Virus record (IMG/VR): IMGVR_UViG_3300046517_000468
Coordinates: 1 to 44,439 of that record
From: a virus
Strand: one strand, 5' to 3'
DNA length: 44,439 nucleotides
Part shown: positions 27,356 through 38,204 of the stretch, one piece after another
How positions within the stretch are numbered: the stretch's first letter is position 1
Layout of the letters: the number at the start of each line of letters is the position of its first letter
Made by a program: the position numbers and the translations under genes
The notes under the pieces: model-generated
The model's database searches: none
What the model was told of the DNA's origin: nothing
What the model saw: only the letters and a program-made list of their open reading frames with translations

Positions 27356-27745
27356 CTATTCGACGATGATCCAGACCTGATTTTTGAGATCCAGCAGCGC
27401 CTTGACCTTGGAGAACAGCAGGGCGAAGGCGGGGCGGGGATACTTGACCAGATCGGTGCCGTGGTTGGTGCCGACGACAATACTGCCGTCCGCGTCGCGG
27501 GGGGTCTCGCCGGGGTGAATGTCCACATAGGGGCGACCGGGCACGTCTTCCAGCACCAGCACATCGTAACCGCGCTGCGGCGACATGCAGATGGACAGCG
27601 GATAGGTGCCTACGGGGATCGCGGTATGCCTGCCGTCCTTGATCGGATCTTCCAGGGTGTAGCAGATCAACCTGTCGTCGATGAACAACCGGCCAATGGT
27701 GGAGACCGGCGTGCGTTGGAACCGACGCAGTAAAATATTTACCAT
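27356..27745 (-). CDS. DUF5675-family protein
   Basis: A 129-residue protein from ATG 27745, which overlaps the ATP-grasp stop (ATGGTAA). The motif order matches the DUF5675 family of phages and bacteria: an opening strand (ILLRRFQRTPVSTIGRLFI), CYTLEDPIKDG, AIPVGTYPL, then LVLEDVPGR and a DIHPGETPRDADGSIVVG segment. The family's activity is unknown to me; the His and Asp in IHPGETPRD could be catalytic. It ends the late operon. The 86 bp before the convergent primase-helicase hold no clear terminator. Confidence 0.8.
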   Translation of the reverse strand: MVNILLRRFQRTPVSTIGRLFIDDRLICYTLEDPIKDGRHTAIPVGTYPLSICMSPQRGYDVLVLEDVPGRPYVDIHPGETPRDADGSIVVGTNHGTDLVKYPRPAFALLFSKVKALLDLKNQVWIIVE

Positions 27746-29076
27746 ACCCAATCTTGAGCGAAGCCGTAGTCCTGCAGTTTGGGGATGCACTTCTTCATGC
27801 CGTCGCCGATGTCGGTGCGGTACATGACCGAGTTGGGGATGCTCAACGACTCCACCGCGCGATAGGCACGCATCTGCGCTTCCCGCACGCTGCTGCCGGT
27901 GCCGGTACAAACGGCAAGGTAGTTGCCCGCCGACACGATCGCAGGTGACGTGATGATCTTGCCGTCATGCTCGATCGGTGCGTGCCCGTGCATCACTTCG
28001 CACGGTGCGATGTCGGCAACGTAGGGGTTGTCTTTATCGAGCATCCCGTACAGCGGCACGCCCGCAAGCTCTTTTGCTGTTTGCGTATGGTTGTAGGGGA
28101 ACTGCGGGATGGCGAGCACCACGCCGATTGCGTGATCGAGCAGCGGCATAAAAGTGTCTTCGCCGTCGAGCAGATCCATCATCCACTGTACCGGATCGGG
28201 GTGCAACGACTGCACGATGTTGAACGCAGGCCAACCCAGGCGCGATGTGAACTCCAACGGGCGCGGCTCGCCATCCTCGTCGATGATGACCGACACATCG
28301 ATGCTGCCGGTATGACCCATGCGGATCAAATCTTTCTCCAGCGGCAGCAACACTTCTTTCGCCAGTTGCGAGTCTTCGACGTATTTGATCGCGGTGCCCA
28401 TCTCGCCGGTATTGGGACCGATGTTGCCGTTCATTAATTTCTTGTGCTCGAACGCTTCCTCGATGAAGCGCGAGAAACCTTTGGGTCCGAGCCAGCCGTT
28501 GACGGAGAACTCGATACCGGGCACGAACTCCTGCAGCATGAATTGGCCGGGTTTGGTTTTGATGGTGTCGCGCCAGCGCTGCAGCATATAGATCATGTCG
28601 GCGGGCGACTTCGAGACGTAGGACAGTGCCTTGTCTTTGTCGCCGTTCGGCTTGGCGACGTAGCGCTCCATCGTCTCCCGCACGTAACCCTCGGCAGCAG
28701 CGTAGTCGCTGAACGCCTTGAACGGGATAGTGCTGATGCCGTGATCCTTGAGGAACGCCTGCCCCTTGGCGCGATCCAATTCCAGTTGTGCCGAGTCGTA
28801 GGACGGAGCGAACACAGGCGCGCCACGCTTGCGTTGCAGATCCAATTCCTTCAGCCACTTCACGTTGTCGCTGGTCAGGATCAGATCGGCCCACTTGACA
28901 TGCGGCTGCCACGCCTCGCCCTCGATCTTTTCCACCAGACCATCGCCGACGATCGAGCGCTGCCCGGTGTGCTTGTCGTAGGCCATGCAGACGCGGACGT
29001 GATGCCCGACGCCCATGCAGCGGGTGGCGAAATCAACGAACGCCTGCGTCTGATCGAGCAAGAGTAAGTTGCTCAC
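27739..29076 (-). CDS. PurD-like ATP-grasp ligase (GAR synthetase homologue)
   Basis: A 445-residue protein. GTG at 29076 overlaps the metalloprotease stop (GTGA), so I prefer it to the longer frame. The whole length aligns in order with phosphoribosylamine-glycine ligase: an N-terminal Rossmann-like region, then an ATP-grasp with YVAKPNGDKDK, LQEFVPGIEFS, HKKLMNGNIGPNTGEMG (PurD: DGDxGPNTGGMG) and EPRPLEFTSRLG, then a C-terminal piece with SAGNYLAVCTGTG and VMYRTDIG. PurD joins glycine to phosphoribosylamine in purine synthesis; ATP-grasp relatives ligate other carboxylates and amines. Its place among virion genes, between a protease and DUF5675, argues against a simple purine role. Confidence 0.82.
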   Translation of the reverse strand: MSNLLLLDQTQAFVDFATRCMGVGHHVRVCMAYDKHTGQRSIVGDGLVEKIEGEAWQPHVKWADLILTSDNVKWLKELDLQRKRGAPVFAPSYDSAQLELDRAKGQAFLKDHGISTIPFKAFSDYAAAEGYVRETMERYVAKPNGDKDKALSYVSKSPADMIYMLQRWRDTIKTKPGQFMLQEFVPGIEFSVNGWLGPKGFSRFIEEAFEHKKLMNGNIGPNTGEMGTAIKYVEDSQLAKEVLLPLEKDLIRMGHTGSIDVSVIIDEDGEPRPLEFTSRLGWPAFNIVQSLHPDPVQWMMDLLDGEDTFMPLLDHAIGVVLAIPQFPYNHTQTAKELAGVPLYGMLDKDNPYVADIAPCEVMHGHAPIEHDGKIITSPAIVSAGNYLAVCTGTGSSVREAQMRAYRAVESLSIPNSVMYRTDIGDGMKKCIPKLQDYGFAQDWVW

Positions 29077-29690
29077 AGCAGGTTGCGCAACGCAGTGGCG
29101 TAGGGTACGAGATCCGCGATCGGCACGCCGGGGAACACTTTTTCCCACTCGGTCTCGTCGTCCGCTGCCAGATACGCATTGACTTCATCGTTGAGCAGTT
29201 TCGGATCGTTGGCGTAACGATCGCCGTTGCGTAGGCCGTGCCACAGCTTATGCGTTAGCGTCAACGGCATCGCGTTGAGGATCACCGACGCATCGGCGCG
29301 GTAGCGTTGGTCGCTGTACCAGCGGGCGTGCGCCAATTCATGCCGCAGCGCTGCTTCATCGCCATCGGTGGCGATCACGTAGGGCTGACCGGCAAGCTGC
29401 CATGCGGAGATGATGCGTAGCTCGCGCAGGCTAGTGTCCTTGAAGCCGTGCCGGAAAGCCTCAACCGCTTCGGGCGGCACGTTGAAGCCTTCCCAATAAC
29501 TGAAGTAATCGATACTGCCGTCCGGTTGCGCGTAGGCCGCGATCAGATCATCCAGGGTGAATACGTGCCCACGGATCTCGGGAAACGGCGACTCGTAAAA
29601 CTCCTGCAGGCGGCACATCGCCAGTGTCATAGCGATGCGCGTCTCGAACAGCAAGTGCATGACTCGGGGAGCGATCAGATTGATTTTCAT
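29073..29690 (-). CDS. HExxH metalloprotease-like protein
   Basis: A 205-residue protein whose ATG overlaps the stop of the large virion protein (TAATG). The middle carries RHELAHARWY, a zinc-protease HExxH (His117-Glu118-His121), and a likely third ligand Glu169 in LLNDEVNAYL. The preceding part (RLQEFYESPFPEIRG; YFSYWEGFNVPPEAV) matches a family of phage proteins of unknown role that I have seen in other tailed phages. No signal peptide is visible. Protein processing or cell-wall digestion are options; its substrate is unknown. It is coupled to the ATP-grasp gene. Confidence 0.72.
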   Translation of the reverse strand: MKINLIAPRVMHLLFETRIAMTLAMCRLQEFYESPFPEIRGHVFTLDDLIAAYAQPDGSIDYFSYWEGFNVPPEAVEAFRHGFKDTSLRELRIISAWQLAGQPYVIATDGDEAALRHELAHARWYSDQRYRADASVILNAMPLTLTHKLWHGLRNGDRYANDPKLLNDEVNAYLAADDETEWEKVFPGVPIADLVPYATALRNLL

Positions 29691-32600
29691 TATCTCGGCA
29701 GATCCAATACACGTTGGGGTTTCTTCGGTTTGTCTTTTTCTTTCTGGCCTTCAGTAACACCAACCATTGCACCGCGCGCCACATTATCCTTTATCAATCC
29801 GTGATCTGACAGATCCTTGATGAATTTTGCTGTGCCATCTGTCCCTTTGAGTATCGTGCGCCACACCGCGCCACTGAGGGGATGGTTCGACGGTGTTTGT
29901 GCCATTTCCAGAATTATCTTCGCCATCTCGGGATCGTAGGTCGCACGTTGCACCGCTTCCTCGGTTGCCTTGGCTACAGTGTTATTGATGAATCGGCCCG
30001 TTGCCACGACTGTTGCGTGCGGCACACCGATGCGGCCTGACTTCGACGCATAGTAGAGGGATAGCCACGACGCGCCCGACTGCCCTGACCCTGCCTCAAC
30101 CGGCCCTTTCCCGCCTTGATTCTGGAAGCGCATGTAGCTCGAATCAGTCATCTTTTCGCGCTTCATCAACTCGGCGATGGCTTTCAAATTCGCCATGTGC
30201 TCGGCACCGCCTTCTTCACCGAACGCTTTATTGAATAGCAACTGCATCGAACTCGGTTCGCCTACTCGATGCTCGCCGGTATCCAACAGTTTTTCCAACG
30301 TCGATGCGTCGTACTTGTCTCCCTTGAACGGGTGCGCGTGCATCATCAATTCTTTGACAAACGATTGCGCTTTTATCGGCGTATTGCCAATCGGCGACGC
30401 CAGTATTTTCCCCATTATCGATGCGTCTTTGAGGCCGTGGATAAGCATTTGCTCCATCTGTGCCGCGCCGATGGTGTCAGTGATCGCTCCACCCATCACG
30501 TCCTTGTAGTGCTGAACCAACGACTCCGAACTCTTGTTATTAGCGTCGAATTTTTGCGCATCACGCTCTAGCGCGGCGCGCGTCTTCGGCGATTGATCGA
30601 GCGCGGGACTCCACTTCTCCATAAACGCAGCGTGTTTCTCGGGCGTAAATCCTTTCGCCAACACCGCCTTGCTGTACTCGTTAGCGATACCGTCGCCGAG
30701 GATCTTGTACGCCTCCTGGTTCTTCGGCGCACCATGATTGCCACCGAACGTCGCCTCGAACTGCTCCATACTCTCGACGAGACCTTTGCCATGATGCAGG
30801 TATGCCGAGACCACATGCTCGTCGGGAATGTCCTCACGCCCGCGCCGTGACAGCGACGCAGCACGATCCAGCCTGTAAGCAACGTCGTGGCGGAAACGCG
30901 GCACCGTTTTGTCACGAAACTCTGTCTGCGCTTTGTTGTAGGCGGCGGCTGCGTCGGGATGCACTTGCTTATTAATTTCTGCTACCAGCGCATCGTGAAT
31001 CCGCTGCAAATTTTTAGCTTCCGTGTAATTTTCCGCGACGCGCGCATCATGGGCATCCTGGTTGAACAGCTTAACAACGTCATCGACCTGTTTCAGCGAA
31101 TGATTAACAACGGGCGCAACCGGATTGGCACCGGCTTTCAATTTGGGCGGTACTTTCCCTTCCCGCATCAGCAAATTGTTGAGCGCGCGGATCGACTCCG
31201 GCACCGTATCAGTGTGAATCCTTGAGATAAGCGGTTGCAAAATATCTTTAACTTCCTTGCTAACCGGCGCAAGAGTAACCCGCGTACCGTTGGCGTCAGC
31301 CAAGTTATACGCATCTTGATAATTTTTATCGTCTTCAACTTTGCGCGCGGCGTGTTCCTGATCGCGCAACTCACGCAACCGCTTCCCTTCCGTTGCCGAC
31401 TGTTTGGGATTCCAGTTGGGTATGCCCTCTTTCAACTCCCTGGTATTTTTGGCGATACCGCGCAACTGCGCATCAGTTGCAGCGCGATAAAATTCCGCCG
31501 ACGTTTGGACCGCAAGCGTGCCGGTGGGCAACGCTTTGTCAGTTATTTGCTCGTAACTGGTGATAATAGCTTTCTTCTGCGCTTTCTTCTGCGCGTCTGC
31601 CGCAGCCGCGCCTTCCTTGGTCAAGCGTTGCTGAATCTCAATCTGCGTCAGCGTTCGATTGCCTGCGCGTTGACCAATCGACCACAGATCCTCGGGTGCT
31701 TCGGTGCGCGTCAACGCATCGACAAATTTAGCAAGCTCGGGATCACGCTCGGGATCATGGCTGATGATGTCAGCGAATTTTCGGTTGGTCGATTCTTGCA
31801 TCATGCCCATGCTCTTAGCCCGCAAAGCGCTGTAGTGCGACATGAAAATTTGCGTCGCAGCGCGTTCGTCACCCAACCGCTTCGCCGCGATCACTTCTTT
31901 CACCGCAGGGAGCACTGAGCCGACCGTCGCCCTGGCTGCACCCATGCCCACTTCACCTACCTTTTTGGCAGCGACGCCGGTGCCCTTGACGCGCATCACA
32001 TTGAACTGCCCACCCACTGCACTTCCACCAATCTCGCCGATCGTTTCCCCTTTTTCACGTCCTGCCTGCCCATATTTTTGTTCTTCTTCCGGCCCACCAA
32101 CTATGCTGCCGAATATTCTGCCGCCCAAATCGCCGAGACCCCCCATGATCCAGCGACCGACTTTACCGACTTCTGCCGCGCCCGCGCCAACGACGCCTTT
32201 ACGCATCATCTCGTCGGCTGCTGCCCGTATCGGCGTAGCGGCTTTCTTAACCGCTTCCTCAACAACTTTCGTTCCCGGTTTAACAACTTTTTCTATGCCG
32301 CCACCGGGCATGATGATGTTACTGATCGCGCCCTCGGCGAAGACACCGAAGAAGCTGGTAATGAAATCGGCGTTATCAATTTTTTGTTGATCGACGACGT
32401 TGCTGCGGAACCGCTGCGGGTCCATGACTTCGGGAACCGTACCCGGTTTGGTTTGCTCGATATACTGCAGCGCCCCCTGGTAGAGCTTGCTGGCAACGGC
32501 AGGATAGAACAAGGGGCTTCCCGGCCCTTGGCTGATCCCCGCGTTCTGTATGCCCTGCGCAAGATCCACGGGTGACAACAACCCCGCCTTAACGAACTCG

Positions 32601-32782
32601 GTGACGCCCTCGACGAAACCTGTTTTTTGCCCACCGTGTTCTTGAATACCACCCGTGGGCTTTTGTTCTTGCGGCTTTGCTCCCGCCGCTGGTTCCTCCC
32701 CCGGTGCTTGCGGCTTCGGACGCGACGCATCATACGGCTGCGTCTTCTGCAAACGCGCAAATTGTTCTTCGGAGATAGGCAT
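29690..32782 (-). CDS. Large internal virion / DNA-ejection-type protein
   Basis: A 1030-residue protein. The N-terminus is Pro/Glu-rich; residues ~130-290 are Gly/Ala-rich helices that could insert in membranes (FFGVFAEGAISNIIMPGG; GGLGDLGGRIFGSIVGG). The rest is a long charged helical region. Large helical proteins late in podovirus virion operons usually form the ejection machinery (T7 gp14-16 and P22 gp7, gp16 and gp20 are the models). I saw no transglycosylase motif. The role is inferred from composition and order. Confidence 0.6.
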   Translation of the reverse strand: MPISEEQFARLQKTQPYDASRPKPQAPGEEPAAGAKPQEQKPTGGIQEHGGQKTGFVEGVTEFVKAGLLSPVDLAQGIQNAGISQGPGSPLFYPAVASKLYQGALQYIEQTKPGTVPEVMDPQRFRSNVVDQQKIDNADFITSFFGVFAEGAISNIIMPGGGIEKVVKPGTKVVEEAVKKAATPIRAAADEMMRKGVVGAGAAEVGKVGRWIMGGLGDLGGRIFGSIVGGPEEEQKYGQAGREKGETIGEIGGSAVGGQFNVMRVKGTGVAAKKVGEVGMGAARATVGSVLPAVKEVIAAKRLGDERAATQIFMSHYSALRAKSMGMMQESTNRKFADIISHDPERDPELAKFVDALTRTEAPEDLWSIGQRAGNRTLTQIEIQQRLTKEGAAAADAQKKAQKKAIITSYEQITDKALPTGTLAVQTSAEFYRAATDAQLRGIAKNTRELKEGIPNWNPKQSATEGKRLRELRDQEHAARKVEDDKNYQDAYNLADANGTRVTLAPVSKEVKDILQPLISRIHTDTVPESIRALNNLLMREGKVPPKLKAGANPVAPVVNHSLKQVDDVVKLFNQDAHDARVAENYTEAKNLQRIHDALVAEINKQVHPDAAAAYNKAQTEFRDKTVPRFRHDVAYRLDRAASLSRRGREDIPDEHVVSAYLHHGKGLVESMEQFEATFGGNHGAPKNQEAYKILGDGIANEYSKAVLAKGFTPEKHAAFMEKWSPALDQSPKTRAALERDAQKFDANNKSSESLVQHYKDVMGGAITDTIGAAQMEQMLIHGLKDASIMGKILASPIGNTPIKAQSFVKELMMHAHPFKGDKYDASTLEKLLDTGEHRVGEPSSMQLLFNKAFGEEGGAEHMANLKAIAELMKREKMTDSSYMRFQNQGGKGPVEAGSGQSGASWLSLYYASKSGRIGVPHATVVATGRFINNTVAKATEEAVQRATYDPEMAKIILEMAQTPSNHPLSGAVWRTILKGTDGTAKFIKDLSDHGLIKDNVARGAMVGVTEGQKEKDKPKKPQRVLDLPR

Positions 32783-32784
32783 GA

Positions 32785-34227
32785 CTATTGTTCCTCAACT
32801 TCGGGTTCAGCGCGATCGTAATAGGTTGGCAGTTTTTTCGGTTTATCACGCAGCACGTATTGGTCTTCCTTGTTAGGACCGAAACGCACGATCTTATCGC
32901 CGGTTTGTTCATCAATTATCATATCAACACCATGCACTTTTAAGGCATCGTTGAGACTGCCGGGGCTGTTGATAATGGTCGGATCACCTTGGCGACGCCA
33001 CACCTTATCTTTCGCCGTCAGCGACCGCTTCACCACTTCGATGTTGGTGTCGTCATAAACGCGCTTCATTTCCGCCGCCATATCGAGCAGCGTTTGTTCT
33101 GACGGCGGCGTACCTTTGCCCACCGTTTTCGCCCAATCGTACATGCGTTTAAGAGACGAGTCGTATTTCTTGATTTGCTCGCCGCTCCACTTGCCGCCGA
33201 CCATGCTGCGGTAGTTGTTCATCATCTGCACATATTGGTTTTTCAAGTCATCTGCTTCTGCCGTCGTTACGTTGCGATAGCCGTGGGCGTCGATCTGTGC
33301 CACGACGTTCTTCGCCCCGCTGTAGCCTTTCTTGACTTCAGCGAAGTGGTTGAGCGCCGGGTCTTTGGTAAATTCTTTTTGGGCGTTGTCTTCGATAGTG
33401 CGGATCTCCTTATCCGTCTTCCGACCGAGACCGGCGTTGAACTCGCGTTTCTTTTCTTCTAAGCCTTCACGCGCCTGATTTTCCGTCGCTATCTGATGAT
33501 TGCGGTTTTGCAGATCCCGTTTTTTGGACTGTTCCAGCGTCGCCACGCGATCTTCATGCGCCAGCTTCGATTCTTTGTCGCGCAGTTGCTCGCCCATCGT
33601 CGTGTAACGGTTGGCGATCGGCGCAATCGCCGCGCGGATTTGGGCAGGTGTAGCGTTCTCGATGCCCATCGGCAACGCTTTGACGATTTGCCGCGCGTTT
33701 TCTTCCGCCGCTTTCGGGCTGATCGTATCGTGCGCAAACGTCAGTGCATCTTTTAGCCCCTGTGGCGAGTCCACACCCGCAAACGTCTGCGCCACCTGCT
33801 TGCTGCGATCCTGCATGTCATCGTAAAAACCTTTCTGCGCCAGCCGGTACTCTTTCTGCTCAGAGAAAAGTCTCCCCTCGGACTCGCCGAGGAATTTGGG
33901 ATCTCCTATCTCCGCTGCCAACAACACATCATCTTTCGCCCGCTGCACATTATCGCTGGCGTTTTTGATCGTCATCAACAACGGATTCGCCATGTCGGTC
34001 GGAAGCATCTGTCCATTGCTCATGGACATGACATCGGGCGCATCAGGCTTGCCGTTTGCCGTCAGTTGTTTCGCCCGACTCGCCATTGCCGCGCGGACGC
34101 GAGCATCCTGCTCCATCTGCTTCTGGTTCATCTCGATCTTCTGCATGCGCTCCTGCGTTATCGCATGGGTGTCGTCGATGTTGGCCTGCGCCTGCAGGTT
34201 TTGCAGAAGAAACTCGGTTGTGCTCAT
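32785..34227 (-). CDS. Coiled-coil internal virion protein
   Basis: A 480-residue, almost entirely helical protein, starting with heptad-like stretches (QERMQKIEMNQKQMEQ) and continuing with charged helices (TLEQSKKRDLQNRNHQIATEN). The stop lies two bases before the next start; the ATG overlaps the previous gene (ATGA). Ejection-protein or tail-core roles fit the position. No motif identifies it. Confidence 0.55.
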   Translation of the reverse strand: MSTTEFLLQNLQAQANIDDTHAITQERMQKIEMNQKQMEQDARVRAAMASRAKQLTANGKPDAPDVMSMSNGQMLPTDMANPLLMTIKNASDNVQRAKDDVLLAAEIGDPKFLGESEGRLFSEQKEYRLAQKGFYDDMQDRSKQVAQTFAGVDSPQGLKDALTFAHDTISPKAAEENARQIVKALPMGIENATPAQIRAAIAPIANRYTTMGEQLRDKESKLAHEDRVATLEQSKKRDLQNRNHQIATENQAREGLEEKKREFNAGLGRKTDKEIRTIEDNAQKEFTKDPALNHFAEVKKGYSGAKNVVAQIDAHGYRNVTTAEADDLKNQYVQMMNNYRSMVGGKWSGEQIKKYDSSLKRMYDWAKTVGKGTPPSEQTLLDMAAEMKRVYDDTNIEVVKRSLTAKDKVWRRQGDPTIINSPGSLNDALKVHGVDMIIDEQTGDKIVRFGPNKEDQYVLRDKPKKLPTYYDRAEPEVEEQ

Positions 34228-35120
34228 GGGATGATTACATCTTCAGGTAGGTTAGAGAAGAAATCTTCCCAATTAAACGTGTCCCAATTTACGGAGTCCC
34301 AATCAAAGCCACTGGAAAACATATCCGTGGTGCTAGAACCGGGGCCAAACAGATTCTCCACGCCGCCTGTGCCACCGCCGCTATCAACTGCGCCACCGGG
34401 CACGCCGGTATCCACGGGATTCGGGTTATTGGGATCGAAGCCGGGACCACTGCCGCCGAACAACCCCTCGGTGCCGCCAGGAGTGTAACCACCGGGGCCG
34501 AAGTCACCGAGACCCGTGCTGTCGATGCCAAGCGTTTTGTAAATCTGTTCCAACGTGGCAGGGTCGATCGTTGAAGGGTCCGCACCGCCTAACAGATCCT
34601 TGAACGCTTTGACGGCAGCGGGGCCGTATTGGGCGAGTGCTTGAATTGCTTTACCGACAATCGGCGCACCTGCCGCGAGATCCTTTTGCTTATTGGTCGC
34701 GCCGGTCTCCAACGCTTTCGCCGCCGCTGCGGGCGAGCCACTGTTGACGCCCGCCAAGTCTTCGAGATTCTTGAGCTTGGTCTGAATCGCACTGTAACCT
34801 GCGCTCTGCCCGTACTTCTGCAGATCCGCGAGACGGTTGCCGGAGAGACCCATGCCCGCCGCGCCCGCCGCACGGCTAGTATTTTCCAACCCGAGATTGA
34901 GCGACGCCTGGAACGTCGGATCTTTCAAGATCGACGACGGATCTTTCATCAGGTCGATGATCGGCTGTTGCCACTGCGCACGTTGGCTGCGATACGGATC
35001 AGCCGCATCTGCCGCTTTGTTGGCGTCGCTGGCTGCACCCCCACCTGCGCCATGAATCAAATCGTATAGCGCCGTGAGATCCTGGGGCGTGAAACTAAAA
35101 CCGCCTGTCGTGTCAGCCAT
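34224..35120 (-). CDS. Virion protein, probable ejection component
   Basis: A 298-residue protein. Residues ~20-60 and ~85-190 are helical and Ala-rich with Gly spacing (LENTSRAAGAAGMGLSGNR); the C-terminal ~90 residues are Gly/Asp/Asn/Pro-rich and disordered. Such an Ala/Gly-rich helix with a low-complexity tail resembles P22 gp7/gp20-type proteins. It overlaps both neighbours. No family is certain. Confidence 0.55.
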   Translation of the reverse strand: MADTTGGFSFTPQDLTALYDLIHGAGGGAASDANKAADAADPYRSQRAQWQQPIIDLMKDPSSILKDPTFQASLNLGLENTSRAAGAAGMGLSGNRLADLQKYGQSAGYSAIQTKLKNLEDLAGVNSGSPAAAAKALETGATNKQKDLAAGAPIVGKAIQALAQYGPAAVKAFKDLLGGADPSTIDPATLEQIYKTLGIDSTGLGDFGPGGYTPGGTEGLFGGSGPGFDPNNPNPVDTGVPGGAVDSGGGTGGVENLFGPGSSTTDMFSSGFDWDSVNWDTFNWEDFFSNLPEDVIIP

Positions 35121-35824
35121 TATGTGCCCCCGTAGCCCATGTTCTTATACAACGAAACCAACTGTTGTAGCTCCGGCGGTAGTTTACCCCCCGCCGCCGT
35201 CGTTGCGCCTGCCGCCGCGATCGTGTTGCTGCCCTGCGGTCCCACTTGCTTGCCGCCTTGCGTGATGCCGGTAAAGTCCAACCCCGCTTGCCCGGTGTAG
35301 GGGTTTTTGCCGCTTTTCTGCATATCCTGCATCATCATCGAGTAGTTGACGCCCGCCTTTGCCATCGACTCCATCATCGACACCCACCACGGCGCAGCAG
35401 CACCGCCACTCGCCACCGTCGCTATCCCGCCAACGATCGCGGGGCCGTACTTCACCAGATTGCTAGTAAAGCCGTTTTCGTTGGGGATCACGTTAGCGAA
35501 CGGTGTGACATCGCCCCACAAATCGGAGTGGATGACTGCCTTGGAATCGCCGAGATTCTGATCGCCGGTAACGTGCGTAAATCCCTGCTTCGCCGAACTG
35601 ACGTTGTTCGAGCCATACCCCACCAGCGACGACGGCGCGTTGACACCGAAATCAAAAATCTTGTTACCGCCCTCGCTATCCCCGCGCGTCGCCTGCAACA
35701 AGCCGTTGTCGAGTAGATATTTCAGCACCGGATCAGTGTTGGGGTCCATGCCCTGCCCCTCGGCAGGCGCACCGACGTAGCGCCAAATCTGCGACGTGTA
35801 ATCAGCGTTCAGCGGTTCAGCCAC
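35120..35824 (-). CDS. Virion protein, unknown
   Basis: A 234-residue protein, TAATG-coupled to the next gene and overlapping the gp10-like stop by eight bases. An N-terminal globular region is followed by hydrophobic, Gly-rich stretches (YGPAIVGGIATVASGGAAAPWW) around 125-150, a possible membrane-active segment, and a Gly/Ala tail. It probably belongs to the ejection or tail apparatus. Confidence 0.5.
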   Translation of the reverse strand: MAEPLNADYTSQIWRYVGAPAEGQGMDPNTDPVLKYLLDNGLLQATRGDSEGGNKIFDFGVNAPSSLVGYGSNNVSSAKQGFTHVTGDQNLGDSKAVIHSDLWGDVTPFANVIPNENGFTSNLVKYGPAIVGGIATVASGGAAAPWWVSMMESMAKAGVNYSMMMQDMQKSGKNPYTGQAGLDFTGITQGGKQVGPQGSNTIAAAGATTAAGGKLPPELQQLVSLYKNMGYGGT

Positions 35825-38204
35825 TCTCGCCCCCGCTCGGTGTCAATTCCAACGCTTCAAAGCGCAACGGTCCCGTGGTATCCCCGCAGAGCACACGGAA
35901 CGCGCGGCGACGCGCCACACCAAGTCGGTTAGCGCGCGGACGCAGCGCATTGAGCAACACCGTCACACCGGGCGAAAACGTCTGATAATCGTCGTCGCTC
36001 CACTGGATCGTCACCGGCACCGGGATCGTCGTTTGATCGGCAACCAGATCCACTTCGCCGAAGAATTTATTTACCAGCGAGCCGAAATCGAGCTTCGATG
36101 TCTGCTGGCGGAAGTCGATGATCGCGCCGTCGTCACTGTATAACCCAAGCGATGCGACGAAGATGCAGGCGTTGCCGCCGAAACCGATGTTGCCCACCCA
36201 CAACGTCGCTGGCTGCGCTTCATCCACCGTGATATTGCCGTACCACTGGAAGCCGCCGAAATACGAGTTGAAGCCCGCCGACCCCCATATCGTCCAGTGC
36301 TTCGCTTCCAGACTGTAGACCAGCGCGTAGGCACTGTTAATCAGGTTGCAAACGATGAAGTTGTGGCCGGTGCCAATACTCGTTACCCATATCAACTCCG
36401 GCTGCGTCGGCGCGCCGTCTTTGATAAGGATCTTGTCAATGTAGGGCGTGCTCACTTTCTCCGGCGTGGTGCCGTTGATGATGTAGATCCCCTGGAAACC
36501 GGCGAGCGTCTGCCCGAGGAACGTAATGGTGTTGCCGACGTTGGCGAAGGTGGGGAAGCCGGGTTGACCGGATGTGTTCTGCCCCACCATGCCGATCTTT
36601 TGATTGGCGTTGATGTAGGGCGAGATCGGGATGCCCGGTGCCGGGTTGCCCGCATCATAAAAATATTGCGTGGTGTAGGTGCCGAACGCGACGAGATAGT
36701 TGAGCACCTTGCCGAGACCTGTGCCCTTATCATCCTCGAAGTTGGCGACGATGAATTGCAGCGACGGCCACAGCGCCGGGTTATCGATCGCGCAGGCGTG
36801 GATCTCGGCGTCCGGCGTCATCACATACGCGAAGTCGTTGAGCACCGGCAAACCGGGCACCGTCTGCGGCGGATAATTGGGGTCTGTTACCTTGGTCAGT
36901 GTGCCTGCGTCGAGCACCCAAAAATTCGATTGGTTCTTGAAGATAAGTTTGCTGCCGTTGGCAAACGTGTTGAATTGGTAAAACTGATTCGCTATCGTCG
37001 GGAACAAACTGTAGCTGTTCGACGTATTCTGATCGAGATTGAAGTAGTGACAGAATTGCAGTGGCAGTCCACCGAGACCTTGCCCGCCCGATGTCCATAC
37101 CGTGTCGTAGCGGAACTGGCTGACCGAGGGCGATGACTTGAACGCCACGGCTGCAGCGAACCCGAACGCCGCCGAATAGCCGGGGGGTGTTGAAACAAAG
37201 AACCACGTTACGCCGTCGAGCGAACGGTAAACATCTTTCACCGGGGCACCCGCCGAAATGCCGCCGATGATAACCATTGCGTTGCCGTAGACACACCCCG
37301 CCATGTGCGAACGGGGCGACCCGAACGCCGCCGTTGTCGTCTTGGTCCAGGTGATGCCATCGGGCGATGACCACACATCATTCAGATAGACGCCGAACGC
37401 GCTTTCGCCGCCGATGATCCACAGCAGGTTGTTGAAATACAACCCCACTGCCCCTGCGCGTGGCGTGAACGAGGCAGTGGAAACAGTGTTTACTTTGGTC
37501 CAGTTAGCACCGTCACTGCTGAACCACACGTCATTCTGCGCAACATTCGCGCCGTTGTATCCACCGTAAACATAGATGCCGTTATTGGCCGCGACGCAGC
37601 AGAAGTAATAGCGCGGACCCCACGGCGCGGGATTGACGGCGAGCGTCCATGTCACCCCATCGAGGCTACCCCACACGTCGGAGTACACCAGCGATCCCTG
37701 GAAACCGCCCATGATCCACATCAGGTTGTTGAACACGCAGCCGCCGAGACCTGTGCGCGATCCCACGCCCGCCGTCGATGTCTGCAGCGCCCAGGTAATG
37801 CCGTCCTGCGTGGACCATACATCGTTGCCAATCGTGCTCGATGTCGTCTGCCCGCAGATGACCCACATGCGATCCTGGAACACCAGCATGACGTGCCCGT
37901 AGCGCCCGCTCCATTGCGGTAGCTGCAGCGTGCAGTTGGTCAGACTCGACTTACTGAGTGTCCCACCAGATGTCCGCGTCAGCACATCGCCAACGATCAG
38001 GTACTCGAAGCCGTTGAAATAAAATTGGCCCTGCACGGTGCCGGGACCAAACGCCTGTACCTGCGCCGTGCCGGGACGACGCGACACATATACGCCGTCA
38101 CTGGTCTTATCAACGTAGCCGTTAAGGATGTAAGAGTCTTTCGTCAGAATGTCGCCATTCCGCGAATTGACATCCACCGCAAGCGGTACGCGCATCTTAC
38201 CCAT
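35817..38204 (-). CDS. gp10-like tail stabilisation protein with Kelch-type propeller
   Basis: A 795-residue protein. The N-terminal ~95 residues (VNSRNGDILTKDSYILNGYV; SRRPGTAQ) and the part after ~400 (LNYLVAFGTYTTQYFYDAGN; ALVYSLEAKHWTIWG) fit P22 gp10-type packaged-DNA stabilisation proteins. Between them, about 97-375, lie five units of ~50 residues with the Kelch-like pattern 'RxxxxxxxFNNLMWIxGG...DVWSSxDGxTW' (cores near 127, 176, 224, 276, 324). They should form a beta-propeller that may bind a partner or surface. P22 gp10 is 472 residues; the excess here matches the inserted propeller. It lies next to the gp4-like gene, as in P22. Confidence 0.75.
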   Translation of the reverse strand: MGKMRVPLAVDVNSRNGDILTKDSYILNGYVDKTSDGVYVSRRPGTAQVQAFGPGTVQGQFYFNGFEYLIVGDVLTRTSGGTLSKSSLTNCTLQLPQWSGRYGHVMLVFQDRMWVICGQTTSSTIGNDVWSTQDGITWALQTSTAGVGSRTGLGGCVFNNLMWIMGGFQGSLVYSDVWGSLDGVTWTLAVNPAPWGPRYYFCCVAANNGIYVYGGYNGANVAQNDVWFSSDGANWTKVNTVSTASFTPRAGAVGLYFNNLLWIIGGESAFGVYLNDVWSSPDGITWTKTTTAAFGSPRSHMAGCVYGNAMVIIGGISAGAPVKDVYRSLDGVTWFFVSTPPGYSAAFGFAAAVAFKSSPSVSQFRYDTVWTSGGQGLGGLPLQFCHYFNLDQNTSNSYSLFPTIANQFYQFNTFANGSKLIFKNQSNFWVLDAGTLTKVTDPNYPPQTVPGLPVLNDFAYVMTPDAEIHACAIDNPALWPSLQFIVANFEDDKGTGLGKVLNYLVAFGTYTTQYFYDAGNPAPGIPISPYINANQKIGMVGQNTSGQPGFPTFANVGNTITFLGQTLAGFQGIYIINGTTPEKVSTPYIDKILIKDGAPTQPELIWVTSIGTGHNFIVCNLINSAYALVYSLEAKHWTIWGSAGFNSYFGGFQWYGNITVDEAQPATLWVGNIGFGGNACIFVASLGLYSDDGAIIDFRQQTSKLDFGSLVNKFFGEVDLVADQTTIPVPVTIQWSDDDYQTFSPGVTVLLNALRPRANRLGVARRRAFRVLCGDTTGPLRFEALELTPSGGESG

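Follow-up and report, generated by a model that had tools for sequence, protein, structure and literature searches.

The closest described relative of the ligase considered here is the purine enzyme PurD (TIGR00877; PF02844, PF01071 and PF02843; PDB 2yw2), with which it shares the four-domain ATP-grasp fold, a C-terminal RxDIG motif, most positions of the ATP site and the equivalent of Arg287. It differs from PurD in having lost the GGREH loop and Glu292, in having both signature motifs rewritten, and in lying within a late phage operon. Two further groups of phage genes invite comparison. ATP-grasp enzymes of the R2K clade, which occurs in phages and elsewhere and is predicted to consist of protein modifiers (PMC4431377), are likewise phage-borne, but represent another branch of the superfamily: the ligase is matched by GARS models and has its domains arranged as in PurD, and searching it against Pfam to an E value of 0.1 gave GARS_A, GARS_C and two matches below cut-off, with none to an R2K model. 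LUZ24-type phages carry amidoligase, glutamine amidotransferase and ATP-grasp genes (PMC3890496), and hence a comparable amide-forming set that includes an ATP-grasp enzyme; these genes, however, are early and on the strand opposite the virion genes, whereas the ligase ends the virion operon. A literature search, of incomplete coverage, found no paper on a late phage gene of the PurD type.

Organisation of the locus

The window, by which is meant the whole stretch of DNA that was analysed, is the entire virus record IMGVR_UViG_3300046517_000468, of 44,439 bases. The ligase and the genes on either side of it form the 3' end of a minus-strand late operon, of which the relevant part, in the direction of transcription, is as follows:

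35817-38204, minus strand: head-closure Hc3 / P22-type stabilisation protein bearing a kelch region at its N-terminus; first gene of the conserved block
34224-35120, minus strand: 298-aa protein matching phrog_598 (DNA ejection)
32785-34227, minus strand: 480-aa protein, occupying the slot of the middle ejection protein
29690-32782, minus strand: 1030-aa large protein, occupying the slot of the last ejection protein
29073-29690, minus strand: HExxH zincin gene, 205 aa (open reading frame)
27739-29076, minus strand: PurD-derived ATP-grasp ligase gene, 445 aa, with a GTG start at 29076 (open reading frame, models and structure)
27356-27745, minus strand: DUF5675 gene, 129 aa (open reading frame and PF18925)

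The open reading frame coordinates agree with the initial annotation, which had described three genes with start-stop overlaps behind a large protein. The zincin ATG and the TAA stop of the 1030-aa gene have an A in common, the GTG start of the ligase overlaps the zincin stop (GTGA), and the start of DUF5675 overlaps the ligase stop (ATGGTAA). The genes for the terminase large subunit, the portal and replication are elsewhere in the window. The kelch repeats are joined directly to the N-terminal side of the Hc3 / P22-type protein.

A ligase of PurD descent with altered substrate sites

Chance can be excluded as the origin of the ligase open reading frame, because hundreds of homologues keep both its frame and its motifs. 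When the protein is compared with Pfam, GARS_A scores above its cut-off (42.1 against 27), GARS_C scores below it (28.8 against 34.8) and GARS_N is not found. The best named family is TIGR00877 (purD), at 89.7 bits against a cut-off of 288, or about one third of the required score, and purD is also the main family match of all 36 relatives tested. A model predicted from a 34-sequence alignment (pLDDT 91, pTM 0.90) was used to search the PDB; the top 15 matches were all PurD, showing that the whole four-domain PurD fold is kept, and PurK and L-amino-acid ligases were among the other structural neighbours.

The departures from PurD are evident when 50 phage proteins and 68 cellular relatives are aligned with 12 true PurDs. 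The GGREH loop (GGGGREH) is present in the true PurDs and absent from the consensus of the phage and cellular proteins; in PurD, this loop binds phosphoribosylamine. In both the phage and the cellular members, two signature motifs have been rewritten, QDHKR...GPNTGGMGA becoming FEHKK...GPNTGEMGT and EFNxRxGDPE becoming EFTxRxGWP. In the window, they are located by alignment at:

28393-28419, minus strand: GPNTGEMGT, residues 220-228 (PurD GPNTGGMGA); intein site in one relative
28228-28254, minus strand: EFTSRLGWP, residues 275-283 (PurD EFNxRxGDPE); intein site in another relative

A modelling study of PurD gives Asp212, Arg287 and Glu292 as the contacts of glycine, and Lys103, Lys143, Glu185, Glu192 and Lys214 as those of ATP (PMC8880213). 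This numbering fits the Aquifex enzyme and was checked against the alignment, by which, rather than by coordinates, the residues were mapped. The glycine contacts correspond to Glu210, Arg279 and Ala284 in the window ligase, meaning that one of the three ligands, the Glu, is lost. The ATP contacts correspond to Arg102, Lys142, Gln182, Glu189 and Lys212; hence the ATP-binding residues of a PurD-type ATP-grasp domain are in place, with two positions changed (Lys to Arg and Glu to Gln). Judged from these alignments, the ATP site is largely kept, the glycine site altered and the phosphoribosylamine loop lost.

Taking sequence and predicted structure together, the ligase is best regarded as a descendant of PurD that is not a GAR synthetase: it has the overall fold of that enzyme, and lacks its TIGR00877 score, its GARS_N domain and GGGGREH loop, and its full set of glycine contacts. 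The initial annotation, of a full-length PurD homologue with intact ATP-grasp motifs, stands as regards the fold and, GARS_A passing its cut-off, as regards part of the ATP site; it does not extend to GARS_C, which is below cut-off, to GARS_N, which is absent, or to the glycine and phosphoribosylamine motifs, which have changed. Of the two substrate pockets proposed for comparison at that stage, the alignment shows the Glu292 equivalent and the GGREH loop to be gone. Since the parts that bind purine substrates have been lost, the ligase probably forms a different bond late in infection.

In-frame inteins are found in two PurD-like phage genes (L312:622-2970 and L313:429-2669, in records G080 and G038). 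The first sits between GPNTGEMG and T, and the second in the EAT/CRPGIP motif, which is the counterpart of EFTxR. Essential active-site motifs are typical sites of intein persistence, and the occurrence of inteins in both signature motifs argues for the family being a working enzyme. The PurD-like matches in three other records (G053, G076 and G056) contain one in-frame TAG each, and perhaps come from phages in which TAG encodes an amino acid.

Distribution and phylogeny of the family

A search with the window protein matched 56 viral loci, and a profile of the family detects a member in at least 588 viral stretches. None of the 36 members compared with PHROG gave a match, and only one of 50,697 GenBank phage records, itself metagenomic, encodes a close relative (41% identity), the remaining 28 hits in this set being at approximately 23-29% identity. 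Phage-type copies are also present in the genomes of Paraburkholderia and other, mostly proteobacterial, organisms (L063-L076), several of them adjoining genes common to these loci. The ligase thus belongs to a family of PurD-derived ATP-grasp ligases that is large, has no name and is common in environmental phages.

In a phylogenetic tree, the phage family, a cellular family and true PurD form separate, well-supported branches, the split of the ligase clade from true PurD having a support of 100; one viral row groups beside the cellular family. This sister family, with the same rewritten motifs, is found in DPANN archaea, Planctomycetota, Patescibacteria, haloarchaea and others. Its members resemble the phage ligase in having EHKK...GPSTGEMGT and EFTxRFGYP and in lacking the GGREH loop, but they form a clade of their own and are not accompanied by ejection genes. 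Their commonest neighbours are GNAT and SET genes, beyond which no conserved operon was found around them. One Nanoarchaeota protein (L090:7959-9764) has a GNAT-like domain fused to its C-terminus, and is preceded by a second PurD-like gene. The fusion and the GNAT and SET neighbours fit a protein- or peptide-modifying role. As a partner of the phage ligase, GNAT was considered and rejected, being present in 7 of 43 records and absent from the window.

These data bear on whether the ligase might be an ordinary PurD, carried as an auxiliary metabolic gene to raise purine synthesis. The PurD fold, the rank of TIGR00877 as best named family and the listing of purD as an auxiliary metabolic gene in surveys of viral genes (e.g. 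PMC11097641) are what such a gene would show, yet the score is far under the purD cut-off, GARS_N, the GGREH loop and the glycine-site Glu are missing, the clade stands apart from PurD, and the position is late, not early. Furthermore, among 35 genomes with a PurD-like gene of phage or cellular type, 19, including three of Paraburkholderia, also hold a separate PurD of the GARS_N type; GARS_N was not found in the other 16, which are mostly small genomes of unreported completeness. This is consequently the least probable of the explanations considered. The early impression that this was no ordinary purine gene is upheld by the missing PurD substrate residues, by the separate clade and by the late placement with virion genes in many phages.

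Association with ejection genes

A frequent gene order in the phage loci is Hc3, a phrog_598 ejection protein, one or two large proteins and then the ligase. An open reading frame lies upstream of the ligase in 108 of 111 distinct loci; it encodes at least 400 aa in 80 of these 108, and its stop is overlapped by the ligase start, by 1-8 nt, in 43. This placement behind the ejection genes is kept across phages that are only about 40% identical. Downstream of the ligase, relatives have tail-fibre proteins, lysozyme or other lysis-type genes, some of these names having been read from the sequences and not from a model match.

Because the ligase gene is late and follows the ejection genes, its product most likely acts on a virion or ejection protein. 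The large proteins adjoining it belong to several families, so any single protein target must tolerate much divergence, and no conservation was seen at the C-termini of the adjoining ejection proteins, so no recognisable acceptor is seen there. For the ejection proteins of the window itself, no relatives were found by searching, and the alignments of other ejection proteins were too diverse to serve as queries. Of 131 upstream large proteins, 40 end in Gln, a residue with a frequency of 3-8% at most other positions; the count covers ligase-bearing loci only. An acceptor sequence at these C-termini was nevertheless rejected, because the terminal Gln varies within families and also occurs in the product of the preceding gene (21 of 104).

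The same placement could be explained if the ligase made a small molecule, such as an amino-acid amide, a modified nucleotide or a cell-wall precursor, and merely used the convenient slot at the end of a late operon. PurD and most of the structural neighbours, including PurK and the L-amino-acid ligases, act on small molecules, the downstream genes are of lysis or tail-fibre type, and the cellular relatives have no conserved operon. Against this explanation stands the retention, at about 40% identity, of a position behind the ejection genes that often involves overlap, and no other gene of a small-molecule pathway was seen to recur beside the ligase. A small-molecule product is a realistic if doubtful possibility, and a close rival to a modified virion protein.

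Phage T4 injects a modifying enzyme, Alt, and by this precedent the ligase might itself be a virion or ejected enzyme, delivered along with the ejection proteins and modifying a target in the new host at the start of infection. Its co-expression with the ejection genes, to which it is often translationally coupled, would suit such a role; however, no packaging signal is known, and a compact, well-folded enzyme of 445 aa would have to be packaged and to pass the portal, making this an unlikely explanation.

Putative metalloproteins beside the ligase

Two features of the zincin (29073-29690) were located by alignment:

29328-29342, minus strand: HELAH, residues 117-121
29184-29186, minus strand: Glu169, probable third ligand

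Both had been picked out at first inspection and are confirmed: an alignment of four homologues, taken from unrelated phages, shows no variation at H117, E118, H121 or E169, giving the HExxH motif and conserved downstream Glu of a zincin. The window protein has no Pfam match and no significant match to a PDB sequence, and a peptidase role is putative. Homologues in other phages (L059-L062, L143 and L311) have the pattern HExxHAxxY...DExxAY, and the one in Xanthomonas phage XacN1 bears the annotation 'ABC transporter ATP-binding protein'. In the flanks examined, no PurD-like gene was found beside the homologues of XacN1 and L059-L062, and among 146 PurD-like phage loci the zincin adjoins the ligase in one, which is the window itself.

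A second family, HELxE, consists of proteins of approximately 130 aa with an invariant HExxE, Asp, His and Glu (alignment A5). In five relatives its gene precedes that of the ligase, and in three Micrarchaeota genomes the two are neighbours. Searching for HELxE gave 80 viral loci, 34 of which have a PurD-like gene within 3 kb; the two genes mostly overlap by a few bases, in either order. The ligases of these 34 pairs divide equally into strong and weak profile matches (17 of each). Eleven of the 17 weak-matching ligases were aligned as a divergent family, A9 (e.g. L188:5372-6664), which is a full-length homologue of the PurD-like ligases (hhalign 99.7%), and in which no Pfam match was found for the seven members scanned. 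Among HELxE records of at least 30 kb, 30 of 37 contain a PurD-like match, or 26 of 37 if weak matches are left aside, and HELxE is present in 3 of 43 long records from the window ligase's own clade. One HELxE and one A9 query found no match in the GenBank phage set.

Despite a predicted structure of high quality (pLDDT 96.8), the HELxE fold had no significant match in the PDB. The best was the zincin PprI (E 0.14), a likeness to the PprI/IrrE-type zincins that falls short of significance, and HELxE differs from these in having HExxE instead of HExxH. Its invariant residues suggest that it is a metalloprotein. The idea that the window zincin and HELxE are one family was rejected, the hhalign probability being 0.2%. 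Hence, where a protease beside the ligase was first proposed, it is a metalloprotein-like gene beside the ligase that recurs, in the form of a family different from the zincin. The pairing of a small metalloprotein-like protein with the ligase does recur in phages. As HELxE is mostly absent from the clade of the window, and the zincin is adjacent in the window only, the partner hydrolase is not obligatory. The conserved unit is the ejection genes and the PurD-derived ligase, with the small metalloprotein as an optional component.

DUF5675 and the three-gene arrangement

The identification of the last gene as DUF5675 is secure (PF18925, 94.8 bits against a cut-off of 26.7). Some relatives of this protein are annotated as L,D-transpeptidases, which would be expected to conserve a His and a Cys; in the window copy, the His is kept and the Cys is replaced by Ser. 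The motif around this putative catalytic residue reads DADGS in the window, compared with DTEGC in all other loci examined. DUF5675 adjoins the ligase in 11 of the 146 PurD-like phage loci and is widespread in other phages (159 records). In relatives, the slot it occupies holds lysozyme, another lysis-type gene or tail-fibre genes, and for this reason it looks like an independent lysis-type gene.

It had originally been suggested that the zincin, the ligase and DUF5675 constitute one dedicated three-gene system. The start-stop overlaps do join all three, and in other phages the ligase is repeatedly accompanied by a different metalloprotein-like family. When co-occurring neighbours were sought across the 146 loci, however, the exact triad was not conserved, and on the neighbour counts of the zincin and DUF5675 it was rejected as a unit. 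The zincin homologues away from PurD-like genes, the abundance of DUF5675 elsewhere and the Ser in its window copy likewise make such a system very improbable.

Proposed function

The explanation tentatively preferred is that the ligase is a late, amide-forming enzyme, acting most likely on a virion or ejection protein, with the zincin or HELxE trimming and DUF5675 independent. By analogy with the superfamily, ATP would activate a carboxylate as an acyl phosphate, which would then be passed to an amine to form an amide bond. The acceptor or donor would be a virion protein, most plausibly the ejection protein encoded by the adjoining gene, this being the least certain step. That protein would receive an amino acid or a small peptide-like group before packaging, and the zincin in the window, or HELxE in other phages, would act on the added group or on the end of the substrate, trimming or removing it. 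DUF5675 would be a lysis-type gene lying next to the others by chance. The more specific proposition, that conjugation of a group to an ejection protein by the PurD-derived ligase, and its trimming or reversal by the small metalloprotein, amount to a post-translational modification system of the ejection machinery, is rather unlikely as it stands.

Implications

Since the family is common in environmental phages and nearly absent from annotated records, best-hit pipelines may be assigning it to purD and so including it among purine genes. The phage-type copies in Paraburkholderia genomes may provide culturable material. If the ligase does modify ejection proteins, it would represent an undescribed chemical step in the building of the phage DNA-injection machine; if it does not, it would point to an unknown late metabolite.
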